Assembly: GCA_028753945.1 (NCBI GenBank)
Contig: JAPNXP010000009.1
Location: 1,984,001-2,048,000 of the forward strand
Source of the DNA: Hexactinellida sp. DTS-2022
Taxonomy: Eukaryota > Porifera > Hexactinellida
Reading direction: 5' to 3'
DNA: 64,000 nucleotides
The translations under genes were made by a program, and so were the position numbers. Below the pieces are notes generated by a model that was not told where the DNA came from, ran no database searches, and saw only the letters and a list, made by a program, of their open reading frames with translations. Shown here piece after piece: positions 2,916-57,775 of the stretch. How positions within the stretch are numbered: position 1 is the first letter of the stretch; the number at the start of each line of letters is the position of its first letter.

Positions 2916-3045
2916 AAAAAATCCAAAATTGCAGCCTGCGCCGACAGCATGTTCTTTTGGAGGCACTATCAATAAACAACCAACAAAATATAGTGCCACC
3001 AAAGGAACATGCGTCGGCACAGGCTGCAATTTTGGATTTTTTTTT
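2916..3045. repeat. Satellite hairpin copy 3
   Basis: Same hairpin. The left arm reads CAGCCTGCGCC against GGCACAGGCTG on the right, leaving one mismatch (a possible wobble pair). Confidence 0.85.
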
Positions 3046-3749: not shown

Positions 3750-3882
3750 AAAAAAAATCCAAAATTGCAGCCTGCGCCGACAGCATGTTCCTTTGGAGGC
3801 ACTATCAATAAACAACCAACAAAATATAGTGCCACCAAAGGAACATGCGTCGGCACAGGGTGCAATTTTGGATTTTTTTTTA
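3750..3882. repeat. Satellite hairpin copy 4
   Basis: Same hairpin in a shortened unit. Left CAGCCTGCGCC, right GGCACAGGGTG, so two mismatches near the base. Immediately followed by the 18 bp palindrome ACTATACTATAGTATAGT at about 3890. Confidence 0.85.
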
Positions 3883-5246: not shown

Positions 5247-5376
5247 GAAAAAATCCAAAATTGCAGCTGTGACGACAGCATGATCCTTTGGAGGCACTAT
5301 AAATAAACCACCACCAAAATATAGTGCCACAAAAGGAACATGCGTCGGCACAGCTGCAATTTGGGATTTTTTTTTT
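5247..5376. repeat. Satellite hairpin copy 5
   Basis: Both arms lack one C/G of the usual CAGCC/GGCTG: the left reads GCAGCTGTG and the right CACAGCTGC, so pairing is kept. Lies inside the first 1.43 kb copy. Confidence 0.85.
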
Positions 5377-6681
5377 GTTTTCTCCGTGTCGCCTCCCCAG
5401 GCAAAACCATAAGTGCTAGAGCTCTGAGATTCTCAGGATAGGTGTCTGGTTGTTGATTAATGTGCACTTCGTGGCCTGATTTTTCAATTTTGACTTGGGA
5501 AATTTTTAACGGGACTTTTAGCTTTTTTTGTCCCACAAGAAAATAAATGCAATAACAAAAATTTTTTTGAATCATTAGTATCAGAAAAGTATTTTGCAAC
5601 TGATAGCTCTTCACGATTTTTTTAATCTGTCCTCATTTTCCCAATAATTAGGCTCAAAGTTGCCACAATTCACCCTTAACTTTCTAAAATCATAAATTCA
5701 TTAATATTCAATTATGCAATTATTTCGTGGTTTCAATGAATAACTATATTTATGAATAATTCAATTAGATTCAGTGTTATTTCGATTCAAGTTATTGTTG
5801 ATATCATAATTACAATAAAGAATTCTAGAATATATGAATAGTTAATTTACATTCAATAGCTATTACTATACAAATCAATTTCTGATATCATAGTTACAAT
5901 AAAGTATTCTAGTGTATATGAATAATTCAATTTGATTCAATAGCTGCTACTATATAAATCGATTTCTAATACAATAGTAGTATATTAAAGTTTTCTCCTA
6001 TAAGAAAATTCAATTTAACTCAACAGTTATTCAATTTCAGAACGATTCTGATATTCAAACAATGGATTAATGAGATGGAATATCTATTTGTATAAATATT
6101 TGTCTATGTGTATGCTTGGTGCCCGAAATGTATTAGAGTGTAAGGGGGGTTTATAACGCATTTATAATGGAAATATAAACTTAATCCCCATATATCATTC
6201 AAAGTAAGCGAGTATGCTGATTTCAATTTTAAAACGATGACAGATATACAAACAATGGATTAATGAAATGGAATATCTATTAAATGACTATTCGTCTGTG
6301 TGCGTGTTTGGTGTCCGAATTGTATTAGAGTGATAGGGGGGGGATAATTATAACGCATTTATAATGGAAATATAAACTTAATCCTTTTGTCATTCTAAGT
6401 AAACAAGTATGCTTATTTCCAATTTTTAACAAGATATTAATATTCAATGGATTAAAGCAAAGTAAATTATATTGGGAATTTGTTTACTTAACTCAAATCA
6501 CAGTGGATAACATTGCACAAATAATTAACTATTTATATAAATTATTATCTATACATAATGAATGAATGGCATTAAACTCAAGGTGGTTCAAGATAGAAAT
6601 AATTTAAAATCAACAATCGTTCCTTTGTACCATACAACTTGTTAAATGAGTCTAAACACTATGAGGCGTTCATAAAATGGC

Positions 6682-6811
6682 GAAAAAATCCAAAATTGCA
6701 GCTGTGACGACAGCATGATCCTTTGGAGGCACTATAAATAAACCACCACCAAAATATAGTGCCACAAAAGGAACATGCGTCGGCACAGCTGCAATTTGGG
6801 ATTTTTTTTTT
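6682..6811. repeat. Satellite hairpin copy 6
   Basis: Copy of the hairpin at 5247-5376, displaced by 1435 bp in the tandem duplication, with the same paired one-base loss. Confidence 0.85.
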
Positions 6812-7114
6812 GTTTTCTCCGTGTCGCCTCCCCAGGCAAAACCATAAGTGCTAGAGCTCTGAGATTCTCAGGATAGGTGTCTGGTTGTTGATTAATGTGC
6901 ACTTCGTGGCCTGATTTTTCAATTTTGACTTGGGAAATTTTTAACGGGACTTTTAGCTTTTTTTGTCCCACAAGAAAATAAATGCAATAACAAAAATTTT
7001 TTTGAATCATTAGTATCAGAAAAGTATTTTGCAACTGATAGCTCTTCACGATTTTTTTAATCCGTCCTCATTTTCCTGAGAATTAGGCTCAAAGTTGCCA
7101 CCATTCACCCTTAA

Positions 7115-8501
7115 CGGAATTCTATATAGCGAATTGATAATTCAGTACTGAACATGTCTATAGATTATCTGATTACTTCATAGTAACCACAGAGTTATGC
7201 CAGAAGTGATATTACTAGGAATTTATTCATTCAAGTGCTTATTGAATTGTTTTGTCTAGGTATGGATTCTTTTGGAATGCAGTTATGAGCGTCTATTCAA
7301 TATAACATAGATACTGCCATGGATTACTTAGTTTATATTTGTTCTAGAATGTTCTCTATTTGTATTCAGCTATATTAATGCATAATCTAACGATTCAGTG
7401 ACAGAGAAGTTTGATTTTAGACTTCCACATGCCGAATATCAAGGGACAGTGTCTGTATTGCGGATTTGTGAACATTTATTTTATTTATAAGACACTTTAT
7501 ATTATATTTATTGAAGTTTGGTGTTTTTGGCTTATCGAATTAATGCGAAAATACATGTTAGTGACATAGAAATTGTATAAAAATTTTGAGCTCTTAACCT
7601 ATCTTAATTTCGTCAAAATCTGTGGCAATATCTCCCTAACACCGGCATTTATATCATATTGAGATAAAGGCCGTGAAGAATCCCAACGCGTTTAAATTTA
7701 CGAAGTAGTATATTATAACTATACCATCTAACTTAAAATGGATTATTGATGTTACTAGGAAGTTAGAACCAAGGTCTAGCGTAATATTTAATTTCCAACT
7801 TTATGGTCACATCACTGAAATGACACCACCATATATGGGCATGCGAATTTATAGAAGAGTGACCATATGGTTACTAGTCTCATTTGTTCTTCCAGTGAGT
7901 TTGTAGTGGGATATTGATGTGAATAGTTGGTTAGATCTAAGCTCTAGAGTTTATACTTTCGTTGATATAAATTTTGTTGTGTCATCAAAATTGGTCACAT
8001 TTCATGCCCATATACGGATCATTTTGAAAACGGTGCATGTTGGGGTCACAAAATGTATTATGAACGGATAGGAAGTCGGGTATTGCGAGCATTTTGAGAG
8101 GTATTTAAATATTGTAGCTGCTCGGGTGTCTTAGAAAAAAAATGGACCAGAAAACGTACCCTCGAATGCGATTATAGGCCATAAGTGTTTAAATTTTCAC
8201 TTTTTGCGAATTTTTTTTGATCAATTGTTGTTTATTTTCGTCAGTGATTGCTAGGATAGAGTAATGGAACCACAAATCTTACCATTGTTGAGGAATATAA
8301 AAAAGAGAATCGTTCAAAGTGGAGAAACCAGTGATCCGCTGTACAAAATAGCTTATAACTCTGAAAATACGGGTGGACGAGACTCAAAACCATATACAAA
8401 CATTAGTTATGGTCCTTCGGGAGTGTTTGGTACCAAAAAAAAAAAAGGGTTATGATGTCTTTTGGAGCGAAATTTCTGATTTTTCCCTTTAGAGAACACC
8501 G
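7115..8501. mobile_element. 1.39 kb TTAA-flanked insertion
   Basis: The uninterrupted satellite copies read CACCCTTAACTTTCTAAAATC. Here the same sequence is split by 1387 bp, with TTAA at both edges (7111-7114 and 8502-8505). The ends are CGGAATTCTATAT and, inverted, CGGTGTTCTCTA, a weak terminal inverted repeat. TTAA targeting suggests a piggyBac-like non-autonomous element, but no transposase is seen. A 63-codon frame at 8264-8455 is present and unrecognised. Confidence 0.65.
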
Positions 8502-9595
8502 TTAACTTTCTAAAATCGTAAATTCATTAATATTCATCATGCAATTATTTCGTGGTTTCGATGAAGATCTACTATTTATGAATAATTCAATTAGATTCAG
8601 TGTTATTTCGATTCAAGTTATTGTTGATATTATAATCACAATAAAGAATTCTAGTATATATGAATAATTAATTTACATTCAATAGCTATTACTATACAAA
8701 TCTATTTCTGATATCATAGTTACAATAAAGTATTATATTGTAAATGAATAATTCAATTTGATTCAATAACTGCTACTATATAAATCGATTTCTAATACAA
8801 TAATTGTATTAAAGTTTTCTCCTATATGAAAATTCAATTTCACTCAACAGTATTCAATTTCAGAACGATTTCTGATATTCAAACAATGGATTAATGAGAT
8901 GGAATATCTATTTGTATAAATATTTGTCTATGTGTGTGCTTGGTGCCCGAATTGTATTAGAGTGATAGGGGAAGGGGGGGGGGGTGTGTTTATAACTCAT
9001 TTATAATGGGAATATAAACTTGATCTCTTTTGTCATTCTAAGTAAAAAGTATGCTGATTTCCAATTTTTAACAGTATATTAATATTCAATGGATTAAAGC
9101 AAATTAAATTAAATTTGGAATTTGTTTACTTAACTCAACTCACATTGGATAACATTGCTAAAATAATTAACTATTTATATAATTTATTTTCTATACATAA
9201 TGAATGAATGGCATTAAACGCAAGATGGTTTAAGATAAAAACAAAATTCCAATTTATCAATCGATCCTTTGTCCCGTAACAACTTGGTGCCCGAATTGTA
9301 TTAGAGTGATAGGGGGGTCTAAAACGCATTTATAATGGAAATATAAACTTAAACTCAAGATGGTTTAAGATAGAAAGAAGCATGAAATTTATCAAACGTT
9401 CCTTTGTCCCGTAACAACTTGTTAAATGAATCTAAACACCCTGTGACGTTCATGACATGGCGAAAAAAATCCAAAATTGCAGCCTGTGTCGACAGCATAT
9501 TCCTTTGGAGGCACTATCACTAGACCACCACCAAAATATAGTGCCACCAAAGGAACATGCGTCGGCACAGCTGCAATTTTGGATTTTTTTTAGCC
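8502..9595 (+). repeat. Diverged satellite copy
   Basis: Resumes the repeat after the TTAA insertion with AACTTTCTAAAATCGTAAATTC and runs to the hairpin at 9462-9591. A GGGG-rich run sits near 8970, and part of the unit (TTGGTGCCCGAATTGTATTA) is duplicated near 8940 and 9285. Confidence 0.8.
9462..9591. repeat. Satellite hairpin copy 7
   Basis: Left CAGCCTGTGTCGAC, right GTCGGCACAGCTGC. The right arm has the shortened form and the left arm has not, so this copy has a bulge. Confidence 0.8.
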
Positions 9596-9596
9596 T

Positions 9597-10800
9597 ATGG
9601 GAATTCCCATAGGATTATCAATAGAATTTCCACACATTCATATAGAATCTATAGATCATCATATTACCAATAAAGCATAGTGTACATTATGGTTGTAGAC
9701 AAACCATAATGATTCATGAACAATGGTTGTAAATGTGACATGGAATATTTCGCTGCTAACTTCGCTGCTAACTTCACAACCATCTAGTAATGACAAGTAA
9801 TAGCATATCGGCATAATATTACAACCAAGTAAACAAATATAATAATAGCTTAGAAAATAATTGTCAATGATATCAGAATACATAAAAGTTGGGTAACTGT
9901 GTAAATATTAATTGCAAATAACATGTAAGAATAAGAAATCAATTGCAATTTGCAAGTAAATGTCAAAAGTGTTTGGTAGATAGTATGTTGCTAGTTGCCG
10001 AAAATTCACTTTACATGTCAATCAATAGAATTTTATTAGAAATAGATATTGCATGTATGATGTATTCGCATCACATAAATGATTTAGATAGCTTTAGAAT
10101 ATATTTAGTGATTAAAAAAATTCGGGAATACTAGTGTTACATTGTGTAGTAGTACATCAATTTTATAGCATCATTATCAAAAAAGTATGAACTATCAGAC
10201 TTTTGATAGGTGTAAATAAAGAGAAATTAAGGAAGTAGTAAGAGCAACAGAATCGAAATGAAATTTGAAACGTCATTAAATGTGACACGATTTCAGAAAA
10301 TTGAACATAATTTTTGCTGAGTCATTGTGCGATTAGGAGGTGTCAGATGGATTTCTATTGAAATGACATAATCCTCCTAGTCTCACTTAGGCCTGTGCCA
10401 AGTGGAATGTCCATTGAGTCAGCGGTTGCAAAGTTATAAGGTGTTAAATGTGACACGATTTCAGAAAATTGAACATAATTTTTGCTGAGTCATTGTGCGA
10501 TTAGGAGGTATCAGATGGATTTCTATTTGAAATGACATAATCCTCCTAGTCTCACTTAGGCCTGTGCCAAGTGGAATGTCCATTGAGTCAGCGGTTGCAA
10601 AGTTATAAGGTGTTAAATGTGACATGGAATATTTCGCTGCTAACTTCACAACCATTCATGAACACTATATAGGCGAATTCCCATACGTAGGAATCCTGTG
10701 TAATATTGTAAATGCTATGGGATTTCCCACATGTGGGAATCCTGTGGGAATCCTATGGGAAATCCTGTGGGAATGGGAATGAAAATTCCCTTCCCACGGC
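9597..10800. repeat. Region of CCTATGGGAATCC-type repeats
   Basis: Begins with the perfect 20 bp palindrome CCTATGGGAATTCCCATAGG and ends with several copies of CCTGTGGGAAT near 10725-10790. Probably a non-autonomous element, but clean terminal repeats and target duplications were not found. No gene is supported; the minus-strand frame at 9659-9883 contains an internal in-frame direct repeat and has no recognised domain. Confidence 0.4.
10281..10616 (+). repeat. 168 bp tandem duplication
   Basis: A segment starting TGTGACACGATTTCAGAAAA at 10281 repeats at 10449 with one or two differences. A third partial start, AAATGTGACATGG, follows at 10616. Confidence 0.85.
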
Positions 10801-15990: not shown

Positions 15991-18900
15991 TGTCGCAGGC
16001 GAAATTGAGTACCAGGCGAGATTGAGTCTCAATTTCGCCTGAAACTCAATTTCGCCTGCGAGGGTCAGGCGAGATTGAGTACCAGGCGAAATGGAGTCAT
16101 ATTACTTATAGAAAGTTTTGAACTAAATATTATGGGTTGTTATAAATTGATTATATCCAGATCTAATCCCGCTATTTGTTCACTTCCAAATGTTAATACT
16201 AGGTAATCAAGTATGCTGAATACGAATTTGACACTCACAAATTTCTATTATGTCTATTTATTGTTGTTATTTACAATATAGGTAAAAAAATTAAGGAATA
16301 TTCCAAATTAAGGAATATTCCAAATTAACATAGAGACTAGCAGTTGTTTTAAGTAATTGCATAGTAACTAAATACGAATTTAGTCTAGAATTAACTACAT
16401 ATGTACTTGCAAATAAGTGCTGTTTGTTGTTAAAGAGACACTTAGTGACACTTGTATTTGAGATACATACTAATTTCTAAGCCACTTACTAAGTTAGTAA
16501 TAGGCGTCGTTACTCGCCCGGGTGCCCGGAAATGTCCGGGGTGCCCGGAAATGTCCGGGCGGCCCGGAAGGGTTGCCCTTATGCTACTAATACTATACCC
16601 GGAATTTCCTGGCTGCCCGAAGGATTGACCTTTGCATTTACGACGCCTATGCACTTACTGTATAGCGTCAGGAGGGAGGTGTCGACCCCACCCTCAAGTC
16701 AGGGGAGAGTATCTTGTTGTTCTCAATATTTTATTCAATGGTAAATTCTGGGGTTACGGTTACGATTCAATTTCTCGCCACGGTTAGCCAGTCAACCGCC
16801 CATGCTGATCACCACAGTAGAACATTATTTATACTACATAATTAGTAAGGTTCAGCTTTGTTTTTATTCCTTAGTATCCTTACTACTGCTACATTTCGTC
16901 CTTCAGAAAATATTAAATCAAGGCTGAATTCGGTTAACCGCCGCTAATATCGGTTAACTGTTACGGATTTTAGTGATCAGTTAACCGATATGTTAATATT
17001 ACAATTTACAATTAGAAGTACAAATTATTGGATAACAGTGTGAATTTGCACGCATTTTGTTCAGAATATAATAATTGTTTATCTTATTTAGACTTATTAC
17101 CCATAGTCACAGATATATTTTGGTGACAACACAGTGTAGAAGTAACCTGAAGTGATAAACTTGTACCGCAGTTAATTGTACTAATAGAGTACTTGGCTAA
17201 AAGAATGTGTTTTTCGTTACTACAATTTAGATATTTTCTGAGAAATGTCTATATATTTTGTTATAACTTTCAGTGCCGGTTAACCGTAGTGTGAAGATAA
17301 TCGTAACCGTGGCCTCAAAATGGTTAACCAACCCCACCCTTGGTTTATAGGAATTTACTACATACATATGGAATTGCATATATTTAAGATTACCATATTC
17401 TAACAAAATTAATATAATTTAAATTAGTGTTTTATATACGCAATTACATTGATATTATTTAACTAGATTAACAGAGCGGTTAACTGCTCAATTAAATCTG
17501 TAACAGTTAACCAATATTAGCAGCTGTTAAGCGGTCACCCGGCTAACCGAATTTAGTCTAGACCTGTGAATTGAGTCTAGTCTGTAGGTATCGTTTCGCC
17601 CCTCATAATATTATTTGGGGTGGCCGTTAATAGACAGCCGGGACCCCGGATCAAAACCTCTTGAATAAAATAGGTTACGAGATAGCAAAACAATTATTGA
17701 ACTACCAGAATTACAACTGGTGGATAACCTTATCCTTAAGAATGCACTATTGTTAGCCCGCCTATGGTCTCGCGGGCTACCAAATCCGGCAGTGCTTAAG
17801 CAGACCACAATAATCTATATATTAAAAGCACAATAGTTCTTTGTGAGTGTGTGTGTGTGAGTAGGTATGTGTTTGTCCGGATTACATTAAAGTAATTCGG
17901 AGATAAAAAACGCATCTCTATTTGAGATAAAAACTAACTAGAGGCCTGCATTTGTCCGGCTCCGTATGTCGGCATTTGTCAAAAATTCCAAATATCAAAT
18001 GTTTAGAATTTTCCGACTACTTTGTCTCTATGTTTATGCTGGCATTTCTCCGACTGTTTATTAAGTATCGCAATGTGAGTATTCAATAACAGTTGTAATT
18101 TATTTATGTTTTCACTCAACACAATTTTTGTTGATATATGTACTTTTCAGATCTTGTGTTTTATTTAAAGATGATATATTGGCTAATAATAGAATACGTA
18201 TAATAAATATATTAATGCTATTTAGTAATTGATATTTAAATTAACATGGATTTTACTTTGGCTCAATATAAATAAAATCGCTGTTCAAAATATAGAACAT
18301 ATGAAGGTCACAAGTTGTTTGTATCCAAAAGAAAGATAATCAATGTACTAGGCTAGTGCTCTTTTTAGCTAAGCTCAGTCAAGAATGTAATCATATTAGT
18401 TAGCTTTCACAGTCAATATGTGTTACTGTGCTATTTCTTTTTCAGTCGTTACATAGCACCTTTTTTATAGAAAGTGCTCCTGAATTAACATTTAACAAGG
18501 CCTCTTAGTGTGTAAGAGGTTTTCTGCTGAGCACCCATTAGGGTCGCTGGCTATACTTACTCCTACGCACTTGACACCCACTATAGTTAGGGCTGACTTC
18601 GCACCTGTCCAAAGATTATATTATGTACTTAGTGAAAGTAAAATGTAATGAAGCTTCTAAATAATTTTTATTATCAATTATATAATTTATATTACATATA
18701 ATTACAATACACATTTATTGTTTGTTTGAAGGTACGAGAAACGAAATGACTTTCAGACCCTGTAGACATGCAAATTGGTGTAGATTGCTGAATTAAATTA
18801 AATAACTTGGATTAACATTCGTATTTGTCATTCACCAATTCAGAGCAGTTTCGAAATAATATCATTTAGAAGTTCCTTAATTCCCACACACTGACCTTGA

Positions 18901-20221
18901 GTTTGAGATTTTCTGATTAATTCCCAATCCCATTCTGAATGGACTGGGATTAATCTTAAAATCTTTTAAACTATAATTTCCATAGGGATTTGGCCCCATC
19001 TCTGGTTGCATATTATAACAATTGTTATTTTTAGACTATTTTCCAATATTGAGAAAGTAGTCTGAAAAATGTCAACATCTTAGATTCGGAGAATTCCCAC
19101 ATACGGAGTTTGACGTAGTCTCAGAATGGGATTAGTAGGGCCCATAGGTTAGTCCATTACGGTGACATTGGGAGGCCATTGCACATTGGTGATTCAATTG
19201 GCAAACTTTTGTATGTCCATGGCCCTACCAACCATACCAGAGCCTACGCCTTTGTATTGTTAATTTATAGATGCACATTTAAACACATTTACTACATAAC
19301 TAGAAGGTAATTACTCATTTACTCACTATACATTCTCAACTGAGTGATATTGATAAGCTGATTTAACAGCAAAACCAGCTATTAAACCAACTAACAACAC
19401 AACCAGCTTATCAATAAACTCAACATTCATTTGAGAATGTGTCGCGATTAATTATGTTCTGTTTATGGTGAATGTATTGAAAATTATATGTATTGGAGAT
19501 TAAACTGGTGGCTTGAGTTAAATGGTTTGAATTCGCGAGTAGATTAGGATAAATATTTATTAGGAGGCAATACGAGCCTACAGTATAATCTCGTTCGCTT
19601 TTGCTAGGGAATACTTAACTATTCCACTTAATTAATTATAATGTATAATTTACACTTTACAACGCAATATAATTAACTTACAAAAGGATTCGTATTCCTT
19701 TTGTCAAGTCTTCAATATTAATCTATATACGTAACTATATGATACTAGTTTGCTTACTTAGTTATATTTTAAAATCTCAATCTTATTCTTAGTCATTAAT
19801 TCCCCAACTTTAACAACAAACAGCCCTTATTTGCAAGTAGTTAATTCTAAATTCGTATTTAGCATATGCAATTACTTAAAATAATCGTCTCATCTCTATG
19901 TAAATTCTAATATTTTACAAACTTATTTACCTATATTGTCAATAACAACAATAAATATTTGTATTAGAAACTTGTGAGTGTCAAATTCGTATTCAGCATA
20001 CTTTGTTTACCTAGTATGATAAGTGAACGAATAACTGGATTAGATCTGGGATATAATCAATTTTTAACAACCCATAATATTTAGTTATAAATTTTCTATA
20101 AGTATTATGACTCCATTTCGCCTGGTACTCAATCTCGCCTGACCCTCGCAGGCGAAATTGAGTTTCAGGCGAAATTGAGACTCAATCTCGCCTGGTACTC
20201 AATTTCGCCTACAACATATAC
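15991..20221. repeat. Left arm of the giant foldback (4.2 kb)
   Basis: This arm is the inverted copy of 27378-33026, checked at many points (for example 17600-17830 against 29640-29850, 18500-18600 against 28810-28900, 19060-19250 against 28150-28330). Divergence of several percent and small indels argue against a simple assembly artefact. Both ends of this arm carry inverted copies of a GGCGAAATTGAG cluster, so the arm may itself derive from an older element. Contains GGTTAACCG-rich MITE material at 16740-17580. No coding seen. Confidence 0.8.
16491..16651. mobile_element. 161 bp MITE inside the left arm
   Basis: The opposite arm lacks this segment. Flanked by the 8 bp direct repeat CACTTACT (16483-16490 and 16652-16659). 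Subterminal inverted repeat ATAGGCGTCGT/ACGACGCCTAT. Interior has GCCCGGAAATGTCCGGG repeats. Probably hAT-like. Confidence 0.7.
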
Positions 20222-20232
20222 TAGGTAAACAA
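20222..20232. repeat. Target-site duplication, left copy (11 bp)
   Basis: TAGGTAAACAA directly precedes the transposon end at 20233. The same 11 bp follow the other end at 27367-27377. Confidence 0.75.
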
Positions 20233-20942
20233 TGACTGTGAAGTTGGCTTAGTATTCGACCAGGCTCACTTCAGTCAAATATTTGACTCACTTCTAGTTA
20301 TTAGATTTGAATAAATTTAGTCTCGTTCGAAAGAGGAGATACGGAGGTTTCCCGTGATATTATTTATTTTTTAATTTTTTAACTTTCAGTTGGTTATTTT
20401 TATCATACAAAGCCGCACTGGTATCTCATCAAAAATCACATTCTCAAAATTTGTTTACAATTCTGAAAATTTGTTACCATACTTTGGAGAGTTGGAGGTT
20501 TATGTGATTTAATTTTCATTTAAAATTTCCCAAAAATTGTGGAGTTATGAACATTCAAACTTGAAGTTGGGAAAAAGAGTGGAAGTAGAATTTTGGAAAG
20601 TCCATTGAGTAGGGTTAGTACAAAGTGTCAATTCCTATCCAATATCAACCTGAATCTATTTTATTTTGGTATCATTCGTTAGAAGAGACACGGAGGTTTA
20701 CCTCAATGCCATTAGATTCCCGAATATTCCCTATATAACAGATAAATAAGTCCTTTAAAAATGGCTTAAATCTCTGTTTTTATTGTTTTATCTTTTCAAA
20801 CTTTGAGCTCAATTTTCCGAGATAAAATTGAACCAGAATCGATTCAAACTTTACAGGTACTTTCTCTGATATATTATTATTCTATCCCCAGAAAAAAAAA
20901 CAGGGGTCGCTAGTCATTTCTTTCAGAATTTTTTTAATTTCT
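20233..20942 (+). repeat. Transposon terminal inverted repeat, left
   Basis: ~710 bp, nearly identical in inverted form to 26657-27366. Pairing ends at 20942 (GAATTTTTTTAATTTCT). Contains two CCTC-rich motifs, GAGGAGATACGGAGGTTT near 20332 and a similar one at 20680. Confidence 0.9.
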
Positions 20943-21278
20943 TGGACAGCAATAGCTAATTAATTAAATTTTCAATATTCATACTTTAGTTTATAATAAG
21001 CTCTCTACAAGTATGCACCTATAGCTATCCCTAAATGGTATTTCCCACAAGTCTAATTTGCGTCACACAATCGTTAGTTCCACTTACAAATTTAGCTGTT
21101 GCGCATTTAGGCTATTCTTAGAATATTTAAGCCTCGACTCAGGCTAGTAGGAGATTTCGAACTTTACATTCATTGCTTTTTTCATCACTCTTTCAAACTT
21201 TTCCTTGATTCTTCTACAATTATTTCTTGAACTTTAGTTCTTTTCTACAATTATTTATTGATTCATTATTCTCTCTCA

Positions 21279-24200
21279 ATGATTTCTATTGAATTGTGGC
21301 GTGCTCACATCGGATTGCATTGCAGCCGCAGATGCAATAATACCCATCATCGTCATCAATCAACAGACCAAACTGATTCATCTGTTTCGATCATCTCGGC
21401 TTTTATTGCATGTATAGTAGCCATTCTACTCGTCATTGGCGGCATCGAGATCAACCCTGGGCCTATCACCCCAGCTCAAGATACTCATCACGAACGAGGT
21501 AATTTTGACTTATATATGTTATGGATAAGAATAACCTTTATTGTTATTTTTTTTAGAACTACCAGCTGAGATCAAATCTTTTATCGACGCACTCCTCTCC
21601 ACAACAATATCATTCGAACAATTGGTCCAGTCCCTGTCTGCAAGCTACAGTTCGCCCAGTTCCATTTGGGGTTCCATTTGTAAGAAAGTCTACTTGCGTA
21701 ACAAGCCTGATAAGAGACATAGCCTGTACTTGAAGTGGAGAAATAATTCTTATGACGTAAGAACCCTGGTGAGGGATGCTTTGAGCGAAGTTAAGCCTTC
21801 AGTAAGTCCCCCTAGTTCGGAGGAGCAATTTCACGTGAGTTATAGTCTTAGTAACTTAACTATTCAGAGCAGAGTATCATTGGTAACTTCCACAATTCTT
21901 AAGGAAGTAAGTTTAAGTGTAGCTGCTTGTTTCGATTTATTTTCGTCATTCGATAACTTAGATTTAAGAAAACTTGAATTGAATGTAGTTGACGATAAAC
22001 TACTTATTGTGTGGGCATCTTCTGCGTCCGACCAAGCTATGTATGATCAGTTAAAGATAGATTCTCAGAATACAAATCTTAGTTCTCTGAATAGTGAAGG
22101 TCACGACGTGTATTACATGTTCAATACAACTGAATGCCAGTTATGGGTAGACGGTGCTATGTTTTATGGATTAATTAATCCACAAAATGTTTCTGGTTTT
22201 TTACAATTCGAGGAAATGTGCTATTTTGAGGAGTGTTTTGATTTTATTACCACGATTGTAAATACTTATTGTAAAAGCTTTGTGGAATGTACTCCTTTAT
22301 TGTTTTTGTGGTTGTCTGAAGTACAGCTTGAATGTAGTTTCTTGTATCAAATGTTTGGTAAGAAATATGTGTTTTTAAGTGGAGATGACTTGAGTCTTTT
22401 TATAACTTGGGTAAAGGTGTTGAGAGATGAGTACAATGCTAATGGTGTCAAGTGCTTAGAAAGTAAGTGTACTGATTTTAGTGTTAAAGTTGAAAGTGAA
22501 TTTAGTGAACCACTTCCTCGTTCTCACGATGTGCCTGATATTAAAACTGACAACTTTGAAACACAAATGGTGATAGAAAGTTCTGAGATTGAAGTTATAA
22601 GTAGTACGAGTAGTAGTGACTGTGGTGAGTTTTATCTCGACATGAGTGAGTGGGATAATATTTGTATTACCAATTCTACTGGTAAAACTTCATTGGTTAG
22701 TAATTGGACTAATGTTTTTGCTGAAAAATTTAAAGATTTAGCCCCAATGTGTGTTTTGAAGTTTGTAAATTATTGGTTGAAGAAACCTGATAGTCGCAAG
22801 GTTAATAGTCCACTCTTCAGAGCTAGAGCGTCTTGTAAGTTTGAAAATTGTCGATCTTATATCTTCTATATTGATGATGCACTAAATTTGGTAGATAATG
22901 ACATACTTGTCAAAATTTACTCAGAAGGATGTTTGTCACTTCAACACACAGATGGACAGAGCGCACATAGTCGCCATCTATCTTGCAGTGAGCGTAGTAA
23001 AATGGGAGAATTATTAGTGAATAATTCGGTTAGTAAAATTTATAATAAACAATTTAATAATTCAAGTAATCATGGTCTCTGTTATGGTAATTTTACTTCT
23101 CTTAAATCACAAGATTGTTTGCGGAAAGTTAGAGCTGAATTGAAATCTACGGAGAGATTTTCTAATTTATATATGGAAGATATAACAGCAACCCAGCAGT
23201 ATTTCCGTTATTTACTCCCTGAATCCCCCCTACCAGGCTATGTTCAGTATTTCGTACAGGATCCTTTCATTATTCATATGTATTCTTATAAGCAGCTGGA
23301 AATTCTAAAACTAATGAATAGTAAAGATATTGTCTTGAATTTAGATGCGACTGGTTCTCTTATTTCTAAACCCCCTTCCTGTTCTAAGAAAATATATTAC
23401 TATGCCCTTACAATACAACACCCGGAGTTTTCCACTAGTCCCATCCCATTAGCTGAAATGATAAGTAGCGATCATAGCACAGCTGAAATCTCACACTTCC
23501 TAAATAAATGGTGTTTGAGTGTAAAATTATTTAACACAATGGAGTTAAAAATTAAGAAAGTTGAGATAGATTTTAGTTGGGCTATGATGCACAGTACATG
23601 TTTAGCGTTTAACAAATTTACTATTTTTCATTATCTCCAATATTGTTGGGAATTTATAGCTAATAGTGAGAACTTAGGTGTTATAACAGTCCTCCATCTC
23701 TGCTCGGCTCATATCATGCACAGAATTAGTTATAATTTAAATAAGAAATTCAAATTAGAAAAGGCTTTAAAAAGATTAATATTGCATGTATTTGGTCGTA
23801 TGGTTAATAGTAAACAAATGGATGAAATTAATCAACTTTTCGGGTTAATTTGTTATATTTTGTGTAGTAAGAAGCAAACTAGTGTTTATTGCACTAAATT
23901 AAACCAACTAGAAGAATGTATTAAGGCGGAGATTAATGTTAGTAATGATGTTCCCAATGAATTCGAGGATGAGACTGAAGTTAAAAGTAATGCTGTAACT
24001 TACAGAGATAAATCCCCTTTTGGCAGACATTTTGAAATGATTTATCGTAATACCTTAGTCTCAATAAGCGAATTCGAAAATAATTCGCAACTTGATCCTA
24101 GTGTTTCTTATAACCCCCAGATAGTTGAATTTCTTCTAACGTATTATATGCCATTGTTACCGTTGTGGAGTGGGATAATTTTATGTACAGTTAATTCGTC

Positions 24201-25317
24201 AGAGAATGCAACAGACAGTAATGCGATTGTTGAGAATTGGTTCAGAATAGTTAAACACAGCATATTTAATTCAGAGACCGGGATACGAGCTGCTGATTTC
24301 ATCAGAACAGTTTATAATAACATAGACGATAGGATCGCGGCGTTTAAATTTGCTTTCACTCCACTGGCTCATAAAGTGTTTAAAGTTAAGAAGAGATTAC
24401 GCGTAGAGAATGAGGAGGAGTGCAAAGAGGAGTGGTCTAGAAGTAAGAAGAGTAAATTTAGTTATACTAAACCAACTGTTGATAAAGTTAGTAAGATATT
24501 TACAAATTTCAAGTCTAAAAGTTTAAGTAGTAAAAATAAAAGTTTTAATGTAGAAAGTATAAGTAAACGTTCAATAGACAGAGAGGAAGCTACTATTTGT
24601 GAAGAGAATCCAGTCGATGTTGCTACAGTTATTAATGATATAGTGCGTGCAAGTGTGGTTGAAATAATTGGTGATTTAGATTTAGTAGAAATGGCTACCA
24701 TGGAATATAAGTTACCGGCATTCCAACCACTTACATATCGGGGACAGAAGAAGTTATGTGAAGGTTTACATTTACAGTTGTCGGATTCTACAAATTCCAT
24801 AAGAGATAATATCCCAGCTAATTCTAATTTAAAAGAATATGTACCTTCAAAGTGTTTGCGAATTCCTGGAGATGGAAATTGTTTATTTGCATCATTGTCG
24901 TACTGGTTGACAGGAAATATTGATGGTTTTAATTTAGTACGGTTGAAAGTTGTAGAGAATATGGTTGGTAAGCTGAAGGATGCATGCAATAAGTTTATTG
25001 CCAATAAATTTCCAAGGAGTGTAATCAACTATCGTAATGTGGCAGACTATGTAGTAAAATCTAATATGAAGAGGAATTCTACGTGGGGTACTGATGTGGA
25101 GTTATTTGCAACAGCCTTATTATTGCATACGGATATTTGGGTATTTAGTTCAGACATGGGTAACAAGTGGATGGTATTCTCAGGCAGAGGTGCTAAACTA
25201 ATTGATACTTTGGAGTCTCCTCCAGGAAATAATGCAGGCTCTATCTATATTAATCATAATGGAGTGCATTATGAACCAATACTAAGGGTGGATTTAATAT
25301 CTACGGGCAATCAATGA
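21279..25317 (+). CDS. NOF/Mutator-like transposase with N-terminal 2A-like motif and C-terminal OTU protease
   Basis: Two exons, 21279-21498 and 21557-25317, join in phase across a 58 bp GT-AG intron to give ~1326 aa. Residues ~36-62 form a hydrophobic stretch ending in GGIEINPGP, a 2A-like motif with Gly in place of the usual Asp. Cys500/Cys505 (CKFENC) suggest a zinc-binding element. A DDE-type core follows: NLDATG (Asp670), EIDFSW (Asp745), CSAH (Cys789, His792) and a candidate Glu966 in VENW. A Lys/Arg-rich stretch follows. The C-terminus is an OTU domain with GDGNC (Asp1179, Cys1182) and VHYE (His1311). Known: DDE enzymes cut and join DNA; OTU proteases remove ubiquitin. Inferred: the OTU protects or processes the transposase. 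The frame has no stops or frameshifts. Superfamily assignment is by motif only; upstream exons are possible. Confidence 0.8.
21453..21464 (+). other. 2A-like NPGP motif
   Basis: Codons for Asn-Pro-Gly-Pro (residues 59-62 of the predicted protein), preceded by a hydrophobic run IACIVAILLVI and GGIEI. The canonical consensus is D-V/I-E-x-N-P-G-P; here Gly replaces Asp, so ribosome skipping may be weak or lost. If active, it would release a ~61 aa leader. Confidence 0.6.
21499..21556 (+). other. 58 bp intron in the transposase gene
   Basis: GT at 21499, pyrimidine-rich TTATTTTTTTTAG end at 21556. Removing it keeps phase: a split GAA codon joins exon 1 (one base) to exon 2 (two bases). The frame is closed upstream of exon 2 otherwise, which supports splicing. 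Confidence 0.75.
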
Positions 25318-26656
25318 ATTCACTGATTACCTCGTAGTCGTAGATATTAATTAATTAAAACTATATAATTAGAAAACCAAAGGATTCCCTTTATTAGTTA
25401 ATGATTAATTGTCTTATGCGGAATGTTATCCAGGTTTAGAAGCGATCCAATTAATTACATCGATAGAAGCAAAGAAGAATAAAATTATCTCGGGCTCTTA
25501 TAGCGCAAAAAATTGCGATTCTCATTTCTACAGGCAATAAACAAACATTTCTACAGCCACCTTCTCTACTTAAATAGTGAAGATTTTCAACAACATTTAT
25601 GTTGGACAGTGTGACATAGCGGTGTGTGGTCCGCGAGAGCTTATGATCAGTCACTCCCAGGAGGACTAGGAGCTGCTGGAGCTGTGTAGACAGCGAGAGA
25701 GAGCAGGCCTAGTTGTGTCGCGACGATGGAAGAAGACCATCTGGACGAGGTCGGATACAGCGGTCTTAGTGAGCGTACCGTGGGTAGAGGACTGGACCGT
25801 CCTCCTGATGAGGCCTATGGAGGGCCGAAACCCTAGAGTGGTGGCGACACCACTTGGACCACTTGAGCTGTCAATGGTGGCAGCTTGATACAGAAAGGTC
25901 CCAAAGCTTCTCATGACAACAGTTATAAAGTGGTAAGTTCTATTCTTAAATGTACATGTGGATGATTTATAAATATTTGTGTAAAGATTTATCCTATAGT
26001 TCTTTAAAGGAAGGCAAATACAAAAAGGAATTGATCTATCCCAAAGCAGTCGGAATTGATAACAGCTACAGTAGTCTCCCAAAACGGACACTCCGAGAAG
26101 CGGACAACACATTTAAAACGGACAAACCTCCTGGAACGGAATGAATTTACCATGCATGTAATTAATACTTCAGCCGTCTCCGAGAAGTGGACATCTCCAG
26201 AGTCCAAAGAACAAAGGCCATTTCCCCAACATGTCCGTTATTCGGACGGTAAACACATATTATTTTAATGAGATACCTGGATGCCATTCTCTCTTCTTGG
26301 AATTGGATAAGTAAGATCAATCCAAAAAGCAGTGGGAATTGATACAAGCACACATTGTGGATGCCATTCTTCTTGCATTTGTTAATAATTATATAATTAT
26401 CACTACCATTATTTCAACCAGAATAATTCATTGTTTACTTATTCTGTTTGCATTCCAATCTGATGTCTTAGTTATATAGTTGCAATTACAATTTACTATT
26501 ATTAGTTGAAACTCAATACTACAATGGGAACTAAGATAAGCGAATGAATTGTGTTACATTACGTAGATAGTATATATGATATCACTAATATTGATGTTAT
26601 GATGAAATAAAGATAGGCTTAGCTAAAATAATGAGATCGAAATTAAAACATTTTGG
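25318..26656 (+). other. 3' part of the transposon, no second gene confirmed
   Basis: A possible polyadenylation signal AATAAA lies at 25536. The hammerhead match follows at 25782-25833. Near 26070-26250 there are AACGGACA/CGAGAAG repeats like those of pogo-type MITEs. A minus-strand 148-codon frame at 25666-26112 overlaps the ribozyme and shows no recognisable domain; it is not taken as a gene. Confidence 0.5.
25782..25833 (+). ncRNA. Hammerhead ribozyme, type III layout
   Basis: All conserved core positions are present in order. Stem III is GGGT (25782-25785) with ACCC (25830-25833), 4 bp. The cleavage triplet is GTA, with cutting predicted after A25786. Stem I is GAGGAC/GTCCTC, 6 bp, with loop TGGACC. 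The core CTGATGA is at 25805-25811. Stem II is GGCC/GGCC, 4 bp, with loop TATGGAG. GAAA is at 25827-25830. Stem III carries the free ends, which defines type III. It is on the transposase strand, 465 nt after the stop codon, so it could cut a read-through transcript. The match is by sequence; activity is untested. It could belong to a small element nested in the transposon. Confidence 0.8.
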
Positions 26657-27366
26657 AGAAATTAAAAAAATTCTGAAAGAAATGACTAGCGACCCCTGTT
26701 TTTTTTTCTGGGGATAGAATAATAATATATCAGAGAAAGTACCTGTAAAGTTTGAATCGATTCTGGTTCAATTTTATCTCGGAAAATTGAGCTCAAAGTT
26801 TGAAAAGATAAAACAATAAAAACAGAGATTTAAGCCATTTTTAAAGGACTTATTTATCTGTTATATAGGGAATATTCGGGAATCTAATGGCATTGAGGTA
26901 AACCTCCGTGTCTCTTCTAACGAATGATACCAAAATAAAATAGATTCAGGTTGATATTGGATAGGAATTGACACTTTGTACTAACCCTACTCAATGGACT
27001 TTCCAAAATTCTACTTCCACTCTTTTTCCCAACTTCAAGTTTGAATGTTCATAACTCCACAATTTTTGGGAAATTTTAAATGAAAATTAAATCACATAAA
27101 CCTCCAACTCTCCAAAGTATGGTAACAAATTTTCAGAATTGTAAACAAATTTTGAGAATGTGATTTTTGATGAGATACCAGTGCGGCTTTGTATGATAAA
27201 AATAACCAACTGAAAGTTAAAAAATTAAAAAATAAATAATATCACGGGAAACCTCCGTATCTCCTCTTTCGAACGAGACTAAATTTATTCAAATCTAATA
27301 ACTAGAAGTGAGTCAAATATTTGACTGAAGTGAGCCTGGTCGAATACTAAGCCAACTTCACAGTCA
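26657..27366 (-). repeat. Transposon terminal inverted repeat, right
   Basis: Inverted partner of 20233-20942; ends GCCAACTTCACAGTCA at 27366. Pairing stops two bases past AAATTAAAAAAATTC at 26657. Confidence 0.9.
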
Positions 27367-27377
27367 TAGGTAAACAA
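27367..27377. repeat. Target-site duplication, right copy (11 bp)
   Basis: TAGGTAAACAA, identical to 20222-20232. The arm sequence elsewhere contains TAGGTAAACAAG followed by TATGCTGAATACG, so this was the pre-existing arm sequence at the insertion point. Confidence 0.75.
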
Positions 27378-30267
27378 GTAAGCTGAATACGAATTTGACA
27401 CTCACAAATTTCTAATACAAATATTTATTGTTGTTATTGACAATATAGGTAAACAAGTTTGTGAAATATTAGAATTTACATAGAGATTAGACAGTTATTT
27501 TAAGTAATTGCATATGCTAAATACGAATTTAGAATTATCTACTTGCAAATAAGGGGTGTTTGTTGTTAAAGTTGGGGAATTAATGACTAAGAATAAGATT
27601 GAGATTTTAAATTATAAGTAAGTAAGCAAACAAGTATCATATTGTTACGTATATATATTAATATTGAAGACTTGACAAAATGAATACGAGTCCTTTTGTA
27701 AGTTAATTATATTGCTGGTAAAGTGTAAATTATGCATGATAATAAATTTAGTGGAATAGTTAAGTATTCCCTAGCAAAAGCGAACGAGATTATAGGCTCG
27801 TAATAAATATTTATCCTAATCTACTCGCGAATTCAAACCATTTCACTCAAGCCACCAGTTTAATCTTCAATACATATAATTTTCAATACATTCACCATAA
27901 TAAGAACATACTAATTAATCGCTACACATTCTCAAATGAATGTTGAGTTTATTGATAAGCTGCTGTGTTGTTATTTGGTTTAATAGCTGGTCTTGCTGTT
28001 AAATCAGTTTATCAATATCACTAAGTTGAGAGTGTGTAGCGAGTAAATGAGTAATTACGTTCTATTTATGTAGTAAATGTGTTTAAATGTGCATCTATAA
28101 ATTAACAATACAAAGGCGTAGGCTCTGGTATGGTTGGTAGGGCCATGGACATACAAAAAATTGTCAATTGAATCACCAATGGGCATTGGCCTCCCAATGT
28201 CACCGTAATGGACTAACCTATGGGCCCTAGCCCTACTAATCCCATTCCGAGACTACGTCAAACTCCGTATGTGGGAATTCTCCGAATCTAAGATGTTGAC
28301 ATTTTTCAGACTACTTTCTCAATATTGGAAAAATAGTCTAAAAATAACAATTGTTATAATATGCAACCAGAGATGTGGCCAAATCCCTAGGCCTAGGGAA
28401 TTAGAGTTTTAAAGATTTTAAGATTAATCCCAGTCCATTCAGAATGGGATTGGGAATTAATCAGAAAATCTCAAACTCAAGGTCGGTGTGTGAATTAAGG
28501 AACTTCTAAATGATGTTATTTCCAAACTGCTCTGAATTGGTGAATGACAAATAGGACATGTTAATCCAAGTTCTTTAAATTTAATGCGGCAATCTACACC
28601 AATTTGCATGTCTACAGGGTCTGAAAAGTAATTCGTTTCTCGTACCTTCAAACATACATACAAATGTGTATTGTAATTTGTAATCATATTAATATAATTG
28701 ATATTCATTAATTATATAGAAGCTTCATTATAAAAAAACAATCGATAGAAACTAGCCAGGTTTTATAATACAAACGCCGATGATCGCTGTATAAGTAAAT
28801 TCATATTATACTTAGACAGGTGCGAAGTCAGCCCTAACTATAGTGGGTGTCAAGTGCGTAGGAGTAAGTGTAGCCAGCGACCCCAATGGATGGGAGCTCA
28901 GCAGAAAACCTCTTACACACTAAGAGGACTTGTTAAATGTTAATTCAGGAGCACTTTCTATAAAAAAGGTGCAATTTAACGACTGAAAAAAAATAGCACA
29001 GACTGCACAGTAACACATATTGACTGTGAAAACTAACTAATATGATTAAATTCTTGACTGAGCTTAGGACGTAATTGCATCTCTTACGAAAAAGAGCCTT
29101 AGTTATATTGATTATCTTTCTTTTGGATACAAACAACTTGTGACCTTCAGATGTTCTATATTTTGAACAGCGATTTTTATTTATATTGAGTCAAAGTAAA
29201 ATCCATGTTAATTTAAATATCAATTACTAAATAGCATTAATATATTTATTAATACGTATTCTATTATTAGCCAATATATCATGTTTAAATTAAACACAAT
29301 ATCTGAAAAGTAGATATACTATCAACAAATATTGTGTTGAGTGAAAACATAAATAAATTACAACTGTTATTGAATACTCACATTACGATAATTACTAAAC
29401 AGTCGGAGAAATGCCAGCATAAAACATAGAGACAAAGAAGTCGGAAAATTCTAAACATTTGATATTTGGAATTTTGGACAAATGCCGACATACGGAGTCC
29501 GACAAATGCAGGCCCCTAGTTACGGTAGTTTTGATCTCAAATAGAGATGCGTTTTTTTAATCTCCGAATTACTTTAATGTAATCCGGACAAACACACACA
29601 CACTCACAAATAACTATTGTGCTTTTATTATATAGATTATAGTGGTCTGCTTAAGCACTGCAGGATTTGGTAGCCCGCGAGACCATAGGCGGGCTAATAA
29701 TAGTGCAATCTTGAGGATAAGGTTATCCACCAGTTGTAATTCTGGTATTTCTAATAATTGTTTTGCTATCGCGTAACCCTCTTATTCAAGAGGTTTTGAT
29801 CCGGGGTCCCGGCTGTCTATTAACGGCCACCCCAAATAATATTATGAGGGGCGAAATGATACCTATTTTAATTTGAACATACAGACTAGACTCAATTCAC
29901 AGGTCTAGACTAAATTCGGTTAGCCGGGTGACCGCTTAATCGCTGCTAATATTGGTTAACTGTTACAGATTTAATTAAGTAGTTAACCGGTCTGTTAATC
30001 TAGTTAAATAATATCAATGTAATTGCGAATATAAAACACTAAATTATATAAATTTTGTTAGAATATGGTAATCTTAAAACTATGCATTTCCATACGTAGT
30101 AAATTCCTAAGAACCAAGCGTGGGGTTGTTAACCATTCTGAGGCTACAGGTATGATTCGTTTTGTTTATACTACAGTGTAGGACTCAAGTATTATGAAGT
30201 ATTACTCCATAAGTAGTACATTAACTAATACATTTCGCAATTTGGGCAAGTTAGAAACAGTGTAGTT

Positions 30268-31468: not shown

Positions 31469-32705
31469 GGGTCTGACTGAATGGTGGAAAATGGTGGAAA
31501 ATGGTGGAAAACATCCGAGAGTGGTGGAAAATGGTGGAAAATGGTGGAAAACTACTTGACTGAATGGTGGAAAATGTTGGAAAATGGTGGAATTTCTGAA
31601 TTTTCGTTGAAATGACTGAATGGTGGAAAGTGGTGGAATTTCTAAAAATCGACTGAATGGTGGAAAATGGTGGAAAACGACTGAATGGTGGAAAATGGTG
31701 GAAAACGACTGAATGGTGGATAATGGTGGAAAACGACTGAATGGTGGATAATGGTGGAAAATGACTGAATGGTGGAAAATGGTGGAAAACGACTGAATGG
31801 TGGATAATGGTGGAAAACGCCTGAATGGTGGAAAATGGTGGAAAAACGGGGGCTGACTGAATAGTGGAATCTAGTGGAATCTTTGACTGAATAGTGGAAT
31901 CGAGTGGAATCTTTGACTGAATAGTGGAATCGAGTGGAATTTGATTAAATTGTTAAACACTACGTATATGCTATAAGCTACGTGTGTATCATATTACGTT
32001 AATTTTCGCCCATGTAAAATTGTTTGCAATGATTGAACTAGTGTTGTGCATGAAGTGACACAATAGGATTTATTAGTTAGGCTTTGTTACCATGTTATTT
32101 AGACACATCTTATTACATTATTTATCAACAATTCCTTATCAAATCCAGTTGGTATTCATTGGGCAGTTCAATAGAAATGATTAGTAAGAATACTAATATA
32201 GTATCATATTGTCCCACTTCATGCACAACACTAGTTCAATCATTGCAAACAATTTTACATGGGCGAAAATTAACGTAATATGATACACACGTAGCTTATA
32301 GCATATACGTAGTGTTTAACAATTTAATCAAATTCCACTCGATTCCACTATTCAGTCAAAGATTCCACTCGATTCCACTATTCAGTCAGCCCCCGTTTTT
32401 CCACCATTCAGGCGTTTTCCACCGTTTTCCACCATTCAGTCATTTTCCACCATTATCCACCATTCAGTCGTTTTCCACCATTATCCACCATTCAGTCGTT
32501 TTCCACCATTTTCCACCATTCAGTCGTTTTCCACCATTTTCCACCTTTCAGTCGATTTTTAGAAATTCCACCATTCAGTCATTTCGACGAAAATTCAGAA
32601 ATTCCACCATTTTCCACCATTCAGTCAAGTAGTTTTCCACCATTTTCCACCATTTTCCACCACTCTCGGATGTTTTCCACCATTTTCCACCATTCAGTCA
32701 GACCC
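31469..32705. mobile_element. 1.24 kb foldback element with TGGTGGAAAA repeats
   Basis: Ends GGGTCTGACTGAATGGTGG and its exact inverse. Arms of ~590 bp pair almost completely (31469-32060 with 32196-32705), leaving a ~140 bp loop. The outer arm halves are tandem GACTGAATGGTGG/AAAATGGTGGAAAAC units. Flanks ATCTCTATG (31460-31468) and ATCTCGATG (32706-32714) form a 9 bp duplication with one mismatch. The empty site ATCTCTATGTAAATTC is seen in the left giant arm near 19890. The 106-codon frame at 32312-32632 is repeat translation. Confidence 0.9.
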
Positions 32706-40251: not shown

Positions 40252-41310
40252 TTAACAAGACATAGTGTGAGTCATAAAATCATCGTAACCCAGAGTGGCA
40301 GTTCCCTGTCTATTAGTGTCGCGAGACAGGAAATAGTTTGAGAGAGATCGGAGTCTTGTCGTAAGGGCTATGAAGTCATCAAAGTAGACTTTTCCGTTAG
40401 TATTGTACCGCTGCATTACAGCTGCCAAAGCTGTAGGAGACAGTCTAAATCCAAAACTTGTGACTGCAGAGCTAATCTCTTGAGCGTCTAACGAGCCAGA
40501 CTTGTCTTTGTCCAAAGACTCAAATGTCTGCTTCCACTTAGCTAGAACGTTCCATAGCTCTTTGTACTCTGGAAAGTCCATCTTTCCTATACCTGCGTAA
40601 AGTCGAAATTGTATGTCCGTAACCATAAGTACAAATACATAATTGAGAGGGTATTAAAATTTACCTGACTTGTCTCTGTCTAACAGTGCAATCAATATTT
40701 TGCATGTCTCCTGTGTGAATGGTTTGTAGGATCCAGTAAATCCGGACTGTGACAGGCACTTGCACAGCTCGACAGCATCAATTTTCTGGTCAGTTCCAGC
40801 TACAGCGGAGAAACTAGCCCACATAGGGTCAGCAGTAGGAGCAGGAGATCCATAAGGTGCCCCGCCATAGCTGGGCATTGAAGACTGAGCTCCGAGCTGG
40901 GTGCCAGGAGGGGCTCCAGGCGTTGTCTGTTGGGGCGCTCCTGGGGTACCATAGGGCGTGGTTTGGGGAGTACCTTGCAAGGTACCATAAGGCGTGGTTT
41001 GGGGAGCTACTGGGGTACCATAAGGCGTGGTTTGGGGGACACCTGGGGTACCATAAGGCGTGGTTTGGGGAGTACCTTGGGTACCATAGGGTGTGGTTTG
41101 GGGGACACCTGGGGTACCATAGGGCATGGGTTGGAGGGCACCTTGGGTACCATAGGGCGTGGTTTGGGGGACACCTTGGGTACCATAAGGCGAGGGTTGT
41201 GAAGCAGCAAGGGGAGCGCCGGGAGCTGCATATCCAGAAGCACCTGAATACTGACCGGGGGGAGGTTGAGATGGAGCTGAACCTGTGGGGTACCCTGGTT
41301 GGTAGGTCAT
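40252..41310 (-). CDS. Sorcin/grancalcin-type penta-EF-hand protein
   Basis: Two exons, 41310-40665 and 40586-40252, spliced across a 78 bp intron, giving 326 aa. The acceptor TATAG before 40586 is preferred over the CAG ten bases upstream because it restores a canonical loop, DRDKSGKMDFPEY. Residues 1-135 are Pro/Gly/Gln/Thr-rich with about eight copies of TPYGT(P/Q)G(V/T)PQT. Five EF-hands follow: a divergent first one (AGTDQKIDAVEL), two canonical loops (DRDKSGKMDFPE, DKDKSGSLDAQE), and two degenerate ones. Known: this family binds calcium, dimerises through EF5, and moves to membranes when calcium rises. The core resembles sorcin/grancalcin more than peflin, although the long repeated N-terminus is peflin-like. 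Confidence is high for the family, moderate for the subtype. Confidence 0.9.
40930..41190 (-). repeat. 33-36 bp coding minisatellite
   Basis: GGGGTACCATAGGGCGTGG-type units repeat about eight times and encode the N-terminal PYGT-G-PQT repeats of the penta-EF-hand protein. Open frames on other strands and phases (40857-41321, 40930-41202, 41007-41243) are shadows of this repeat. Confidence 0.9.
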
Positions 41311-42099
41311 ATTTATTCTAGACTAATGCATTTGTATAAAGATCAAGTATGTAAAAAGTGATGAAGCAAATGAAGAGTCCAAGAGTATTAGGTAAATTCA
41401 TAAAATTAATTCCGAATAAAATCAATTTTTAGGAAAGAGAGGAAAGTACAACAAATGAAGTCTTCCAAAAATCGGACGCAGTTTATGACGTCATCACTTC
41501 CGGGAAATCGAATTCTCTCAAATGTTCCAAGTCATATCTGAACTTAACTTAAATTGTCCGGGGTGTGTTCCTCTACAAAATTACTATTTCGGACATATTT
41601 TATTCTGACGCAATAATGAACCAATCCAGTCATGATAATCAAAATAAGCGTAGGTTCCGGCAGGTTTGATGGCCTACCAACAATTTGCATTCATCATTAG
41701 AACGGTATCACCACAGGCCTGTAGCCAGGAAGCTATAGTGGGTAAGGCTGAGTGGGGCTATGTATATTCAACGGAGTTTAATTGGACAAAAAAATTCTAA
41801 GGGGGCCCATAATTCTCTAATTCTCCAGGGGGGCCTAGCAATATAAAGACGATGGAAATACTTTCAGGGGGGAAAGACTAGCTCAGAGTATACTTGTCAT
41901 AGAGAATACAATATCAATAAATAAAATCAGGATTAAAACGTGTGTTTATGAGACTCATCAATATGTACATATGGAGTAAGTGATTAAATTACAATATAAT
42001 TCTGTAAACAGTGAGTGTAAGTTTTGTGCTCGCTCCTAGAGATAATTAGATTCTTAGAGCAAGAGTGACGTCAGGCTGCGATAGATTATAAATTATATA
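41311..42099. other. Intergenic between penta-EF-hand and BTB genes
   Basis: Upstream flank of the penta-EF-hand gene and 3' flank of the BTB gene. Contains TGACGTCA motifs near 41487 and 42068 and GGGGGGCC runs near 41810-41870. No gene or clear element borders seen. Confidence 0.4.
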
Positions 42100-55210: not shown

Positions 55211-55218
55211 ATTGTTCA

Positions 55219-57767: not shown

Positions 57768-57775
57768 GTTGGTTG

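Follow-up and report, generated by a model that had tools for sequence, protein, structure and literature searches.

The hammerhead ribozyme motif found inside a DNA transposon of an apparent glass sponge very probably belongs to a solo LTR that derives from a non-autonomous LTR retrozyme, a small element that would move through cutting of its transcript, closure to a circle and copying with a reverse transcriptase provided in trans. The motif lies in a window of 64,000 nucleotides (64 kb), by which we mean the whole stretch of DNA analysed, taken from a genome assembled in 18 contigs with a total of 112 Mb. The features of the window, together with the duplications around composite units found elsewhere in the genome, are listed in Table 1.

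Table 1. Positions of features in the window and target-site duplications of composite units of the same genome
Feature	Position	Strand	Details and basis
Host transposon, approximate extent	17417..30049	.	Nested inverted repeats
Host transposon ORF	21535..25317	+	1260 codons, OTU domain near end (Pfam)
Left target-site duplication	25606..25609	.	ACAG
Insert, probable solo LTR of an LTR retrozyme	25610..25918	+	309 bp, TGTGACATAG...CTCATGACA, GC 0.56; empty site, ends, length, relatives
Second conserved LTR block	25646..25713	+	Mean pairwise identity 0.79, 15 independent loci
Type III hammerhead ribozyme motif (subtype B)	25779..25836	+	Predicted cut between 25786 and 25787
Stem III	25782-25785 with 25830-25833	+	GGGT with ACCC
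Expected cleavage base	25786	+	A; cut expected before G25787
Stem I	25787-25792 with 25799-25804	+	GAGGAC with GTCCTC
Hammerhead core	25805-25811 and 25827-25829	+	CTGATGA and GAA
Stem II	25812-25815 with 25823-25826	+	GGCC with GGCC, plus possible U-G wobble
Right target-site duplication	25919..25922	.	ACAG
Composite-unit duplications			L018 CGTA, L081 CTAT, L082 ATAG, L083 CTCC, L084 CTAT
Composite-unit duplications, continued			L086 CAGG, L087 ATAT, L090 CTAC; L085 without exact duplication

The window carries genes for a DHHC protein and a helix-loop-helix protein. The former is 76% identical to a protein of the glass sponge Oopsacas minuta and has three closer relatives at 77-86%, the fifth match being a plant protein with 23% coverage; two relatives of the latter were found. 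A search for Wnt genes gave none, in line with O. minuta, but the control genomes gave none either. Since the insert and both genes lie on the same contig, contamination is unlikely. Elsewhere in the window we noted diverged direct-repeat families with a spacing of about 860-1440 bp (1-9600 and 53900-64000), 28-bp repeat arrays in inverted arrangement with arms 94-98% complementary (31550-32580), a nested foldback with arms of 443 and 383 nt that are 97-99% complementary (55379-57291), and an ORF whose tandem 33-bp repeat encodes a Gly/Pro/Tyr/Thr-rich protein with no match in Pfam (40654-41322).

The core bases, the three stems and their order are all as the first-pass annotation of this DNA had described them. 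The window copy contains the CUGANGA, GAA and NUH core elements, and its layout is type III, as had also been claimed, because helix III is the open helix. The core pattern CTGANGAN{4,30}GAAAC occurs once in the window, for 0.58 expected and at least one occurrence in 43 of 100 shuffles, and by itself is no rarer than chance predicts. An Rfam scan of the window returned no family at its gathering score. When RF00008, the Rfam type III model, was run at a relaxed threshold on 601 bases, it matched 25779-25836 at 33.2 bits (E 2.7e-5), below its gathering score of 48.5 bits, and the E-value rescaled to 64 kb, about 0.003, makes this match suggestive only. The covariance check proposed in the first-pass annotation thus gave a hit at the right place but not one above the family threshold. 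We also built our own covariance model, for which we used 35 distinct hammerheads from this genome, all of a subtype (A) other than that of the window copy (B). This model recovered the site in the 64 kb at 34.7 bits with an E-value of 2.3e-9, E-values of covariance models being rough. Its second match in the 64 kb, at 53007-53047 (14.3 bits, E 0.03), lacks the hammerhead core and was rejected. The same model found subtype-B hammerheads at each of the 15 independent loci related to the insert and at none of five transposon copies without it, so that the search for the same module in related copies, another check that had been suggested, came out positive in these relatives and in 15 insert-bearing transposon copies. 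The match to the subtype-A model and the recurrence of the module in independent relatives are decisive, and the motif is confirmed as a predicted hammerhead.

In this genome, hammerheads form two main subtypes. Subtype A has the triplet GUC and a stem II such as GUCCC/GGGAC, GUCCU/AGGAC or GUUCC/GGAAC, and subtype B, to which the window copy belongs, has the triplet GUA and the stem II GGCC/GGCC. Genome-wide, the pattern CCTGATGAGN{10,16}CGAAAC matched 163 and 159 times on the two strands, i.e. 322 times in total, and a narrower subtype-A pattern 90 and 81 times; the reversed controls gave 0 + 0 in both cases. These counts rest on patterns because the RF00008 genome search scored just 68 of 12,319 first-look candidates (64 of the 68 above cut-off), the window copy not being among them. 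On viral contigs, at least 120 stretches match a loose hammerhead pattern. Among the 35 distinct subtype-A sequences, seven pairs had changes on both sides, against 4.8 in shuffles, and 36 cells were compensatory, against 17.6 in shuffles and 0-10 in slid controls; stem II was paired in all cells and stem III in 79%, its two outermost pairs being mostly unpaired, although the score by which most subtype-A loci had been picked takes structure into account and so favours paired stems. The subtype-B loci were picked by BLAST, and a joint alignment of both subtypes, which placed stem I wrongly, was left out of the counts. The frequency of the core alone and the Rfam score under threshold are what a hammerhead-like motif assembled by chance would give, but this reading is refuted by the existence of the family: the excess of genome-wide matches over the reversed control, the match to an independently built model and the position of the ribozyme in the best conserved stretch of the LTR (see later in the text) leave it practically no probability.

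The transposon around the motif has long nested inverted repeats (for example, 20219-20942 with 26657-27380, 99%, and 17417-17589 with 29877-30049, 95%). The label 'NOF-like' given in the first-pass annotation, which would require foldback termini and a transposase of the NOF type, is unproven, since Pfam recognized the OTU domain alone in the ORF and none of the five relatives found carries a name. The insert ends in TG...CA, with a short inverted TGT...ACA, and is present in 15 copies of the transposon (L031-L045, L031 being the window). In four sibling copies (L046, L048, L049 and L050) the flanks join without insert, with an overlap of 4-5 nt; a further copy without retrozyme, L047, has other DNA near the same place. 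Because of the TG...CA ends, the ACAG duplication and the empty site in four siblings, the hammerhead is read as separate from the DNA transposon and as part of the 309-bp insert. Relatives of the insert were found at 15 further loci (L066-L080), 78-91% identical over the matched part and in different flanks, with the 3' flank common to L068 and L071. The longest stop-free frame of the window insert has 83 codons, i.e. no coding capacity, and this solo copy has no primer-binding site. The insert, its ends, its duplication and the empty site can be read directly from the DNA, as can the type III hammerhead and the longer LTR relatives described below. What had been put forward as an unusual type III hammerhead for an animal inside a DNA transposon is still type III and unusual, but it belongs to a separate insert; the last alternative offered at the time, a small RNA-based element nested there, fits the insert with its 4-bp duplication and empty sites.

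Conservation of the ribozyme was compared between independent copies and those inside the transposon. For the 15 relatives of the insert (L066-L080), mean pairwise identity reached 0.90 in the ribozyme, 0.37-0.79 in other LTR segments and approximately 0.30 in the flanks, and the five best-conserved 56-nt windows of the LTR begin at 25778-25782, at the ribozyme. In the 15 transposon copies, window included, 15 of 839 letters were changed in the ribozyme (0.018), 15/690 (0.022) and 35/2623 (0.013) in the transposon DNA on either side, and the share in the LTR was 0.027 before the ribozyme and 0.006 after it. The base that precedes the cleavage base is missing from L043, one core base is changed in L044, and hammerhead stems are weakened in L036 and L040. 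At the level of sequence, then, the ribozyme is conserved among the relatives, shows compensatory change in the subtype-A set and decays at the background rate in the transposon copies. Selection seems to act on the ribozyme during movement of the element, not while it rides in the transposon, where, since its decay there is like that of the flanks, it would be a passenger. The first-pass annotation had proposed that the ribozyme might trim or destabilize read-through transcripts, and a working part of the transposon could account for the 15 copies that hold a sense-oriented hammerhead downstream of the ORF and ahead of the right inner repeat. Nevertheless, older-branching sibling transposons have no hammerhead, the ribozyme varies at about the rate of its surroundings and its core is damaged in two of the 15 copies, L043 and L044; we consider such a role highly improbable and the proposal not borne out.

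Longer elements support the reading of the insert as a retrozyme LTR. L084 consists of two 302-bp LTRs with two mismatches, each side bordered by CTAT, and a 73-bp interior; a type III hammerhead lies inside the LTR, and the interior begins with a primer-binding site and ends with GGGAAGAGTGA. L085 is a second LTR-interior-LTR copy, with repeats 89% identical and a changed core in one LTR; plain LTR-PBS-PPT-LTR elements were found at these two loci only. From the tRNA-Gly(GCC) gene of this genome (L212), the expected primer-binding site (PBS) is TGGTGCATTGGCCGGGAA, and the agreement with it is 18/18 at seven sites, 17/18 in L084 and 16/18 in L085. Allowing at most one mismatch, a 19-base form of it occurs at eight places genome-wide and at none in the reversed control; an earlier pattern with two free bases after CA gave two places, and without the free bases eight. 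All eight directly follow an LTR end of the retrozyme class, with core and GAAAC just upstream at six; L214 (minus strand) has no GAAAC upstream and L215 (minus strand) no core on that strand. A polypurine tract (PPT) before the 3' LTR was read in L081, L082, L084, L085, L086 and L090. The 231-bp repeats of L082 and L090 stop directly behind the ribozyme, which sets them apart from ordinary LTR pairs. In L083, two 238-bp units stand head to tail, without PBS.

L018, L086, L087 and the 2.2-kb cluster of L081 are palindromic or inverted products. In each of these four, the whole unit was observed to lie within an exact 4-bp duplication, which looks like one-step insertion of strand-switched cDNA. 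Short palindromes follow the LTR end at the expected place of the PBS in L081 (480-590; TAATAACT...AGTTATTA), L087 (330-400) and L018, and possibly represent another priming route.

Of 52 hammerheads, spread over 43 loci, 18 had exact 4-bp duplications with matching ends, whereas controls at 16 shifted positions gave 0-4 (mean 1.06). Three of the 18 (L024 and two L068 entries) are doubtful by their ends; at the remaining 34 of these 52 no exact 4-bp duplication was found. This count leaves out L015 and L019, which overlap others, and L031-L065, which are copies of one insertion. Two stricter scans gave 8/79 (controls 0-3) and 13/73 (controls 0-2), and exact 4-bp duplications surround eight of the nine composite units checked (Table 1). 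The 4-bp duplications, the TGT...ACA short inverted ends and the prevalence of single units would also suit a MITE in which the ribozyme rides along, moved for instance by a Ginger-like integrase, which we presume to be a possible mover of such a unit. Two-LTR elements with a tRNA-Gly PBS, a purine tract and LTRs that differ at 2 of 302 positions argue against a MITE, as does the conservation of a ribozyme of no obvious use to a DNA element, and we regard this alternative as improbable.

The reading of the insert as a retrozyme LTR calls for machinery in trans, and the PPT/LTR-start pattern may point to a candidate. It was found at 24 places, against two in the reversed control, and at seven of these a listed integrase domain precedes the pattern on the same strand by 1.15-1.75 kb, where 0.03 would be expected; the comparison involved 150 listed integrase zinc-binding domains and 2000 random draws (maximum 2) with guessed lengths for contigs C7 and C8. 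The other places are L084, L086, one that adjoins a subtype-B copy, and 14 further ones. Of the integrase-linked LTR starts, one was read (L216, 151 bases); besides the purine tract and TGTCATGAT, it has little in common with the retrozymes. A purine tract and LTR start common to integrase-bearing elements might indicate that the LTRs come from a longer autonomous retrotransposon that bears the hammerhead, with the units as its remnants and no separate retrozyme. However, the LTR start of L216 (about 110 bases) has no hammerhead core and is otherwise unlike the retrozyme LTR, and the L084 interior matched three places in the genome, all of them retrozymes, without reaching a partner element, so this origin is very unlikely.

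For a non-autonomous LTR retrozyme, we propose that a transcript across two LTRs would be cut by the ribozyme of each, which would free one LTR plus the interior (375 nt in L084, 385 in L090, 486 in L081 and 238 in L083). The freed unit would close to a circle, be primed by tRNA-Gly and be copied by a reverse transcriptase that acts in trans; the cDNA would then be inserted by a retroviral-type integrase, probably from Ty3-like elements. Circular folds of these four predicted units are 66-70% paired, with z-scores of -3.4 to -7.1 against 60 shuffles each, a compact fold being no proof of circles. Solo LTRs may be the product of recombination between LTRs or of the integration of cDNA from a single unit, and one such solo LTR would have inserted into an ancestor of the transposon and since been copied along with it. 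More speculatively, a circular RNA element of viroid size might reside in glass sponges, with a circle that may consist of nothing but the LTR unit (238 nt in L083). Insertions of the solo, tandem and palindromic kinds would then come straight from Ty3-type rolling-circle reverse transcription and not be leftovers of recombination, and LTR retrozymes would be older than those of flowering plants or a second invention beside them. We hold this extended scenario to be rather unlikely.

In the available parts of the literature, retrozymes are divided into plant elements, with LTRs and type III hammerheads, and animal elements, without LTRs and with type I (PMC7229834; PMC7761336), and type III elements in bacteria or insects are announced as in preparation (PMC7761336). 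We found no animal LTR retrozyme and no work on sponge hammerheads among the open-access articles listed, which in some searches were 25 of 31 and 15 of 348. If many type III LTR retrozymes do reside in a sponge genome, they cross this divide, and one can then test for an origin of the class before plants and animals split, for a move between hosts or for two separate origins. Such elements would also suggest that small ribozyme circles can come from an early-branching animal, which has a bearing on the origin of viroid-like RNAs.

Among known systems, 4-bp integrase duplications are, to our knowledge, not expected of Penelope-like elements and Terminons. As far as the source consulted in part describes them, these are likewise animal retroelements with hammerheads in terminal repeats, but the hammerheads are minimal type I and the reverse transcriptase is of another class (PMC7761336). 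Metazoan non-LTR retrozymes are, like the elements described here, small non-autonomous hammerhead elements of a few hundred nucleotides; however, the excerpts available give them type I ribozymes, tandem repeats, longer duplications and no LTR, PBS or PPT (PMC7229834), whereas ours are type III with LTRs, PBS and PPT. Type III hammerheads are also known from animals in HDV-like RNAs and in dipteran and termite genomes, but with atypical extended helices and, in the portion of that article covered, no description in LTR elements (PMC7936874). TRIM/SMART elements share the two short LTRs, PBS, PPT and lack of ORF, although an LTR ribozyme is not among their defining features in the sections covered (PMC4918200, PMC7761336). 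The closest likeness is with plant LTR retrozymes, which according to the passages at hand have type III hammerheads in short LTRs, 4-bp duplications, PBS and PPT (Cervera et al. 2016, PMC4918200; PMC7761336), no coding capacity, many solo LTRs and a GC-rich sequence (PMC4918200; PMC7761336), and only short end boxes in common with Ty3-gypsy elements (PMC4918200). The sponge elements differ from them, within the same passages, in their apparent host, in the tRNA-Gly PBS (tRNA-Met in plants), in an interior of 73 bp in L084 against 300-700, in units of 238-486 nt against about 600-800, in the GUA triplet of the window's subtype and in their many palindromic insertions (PMC4918200; PMC7761336).
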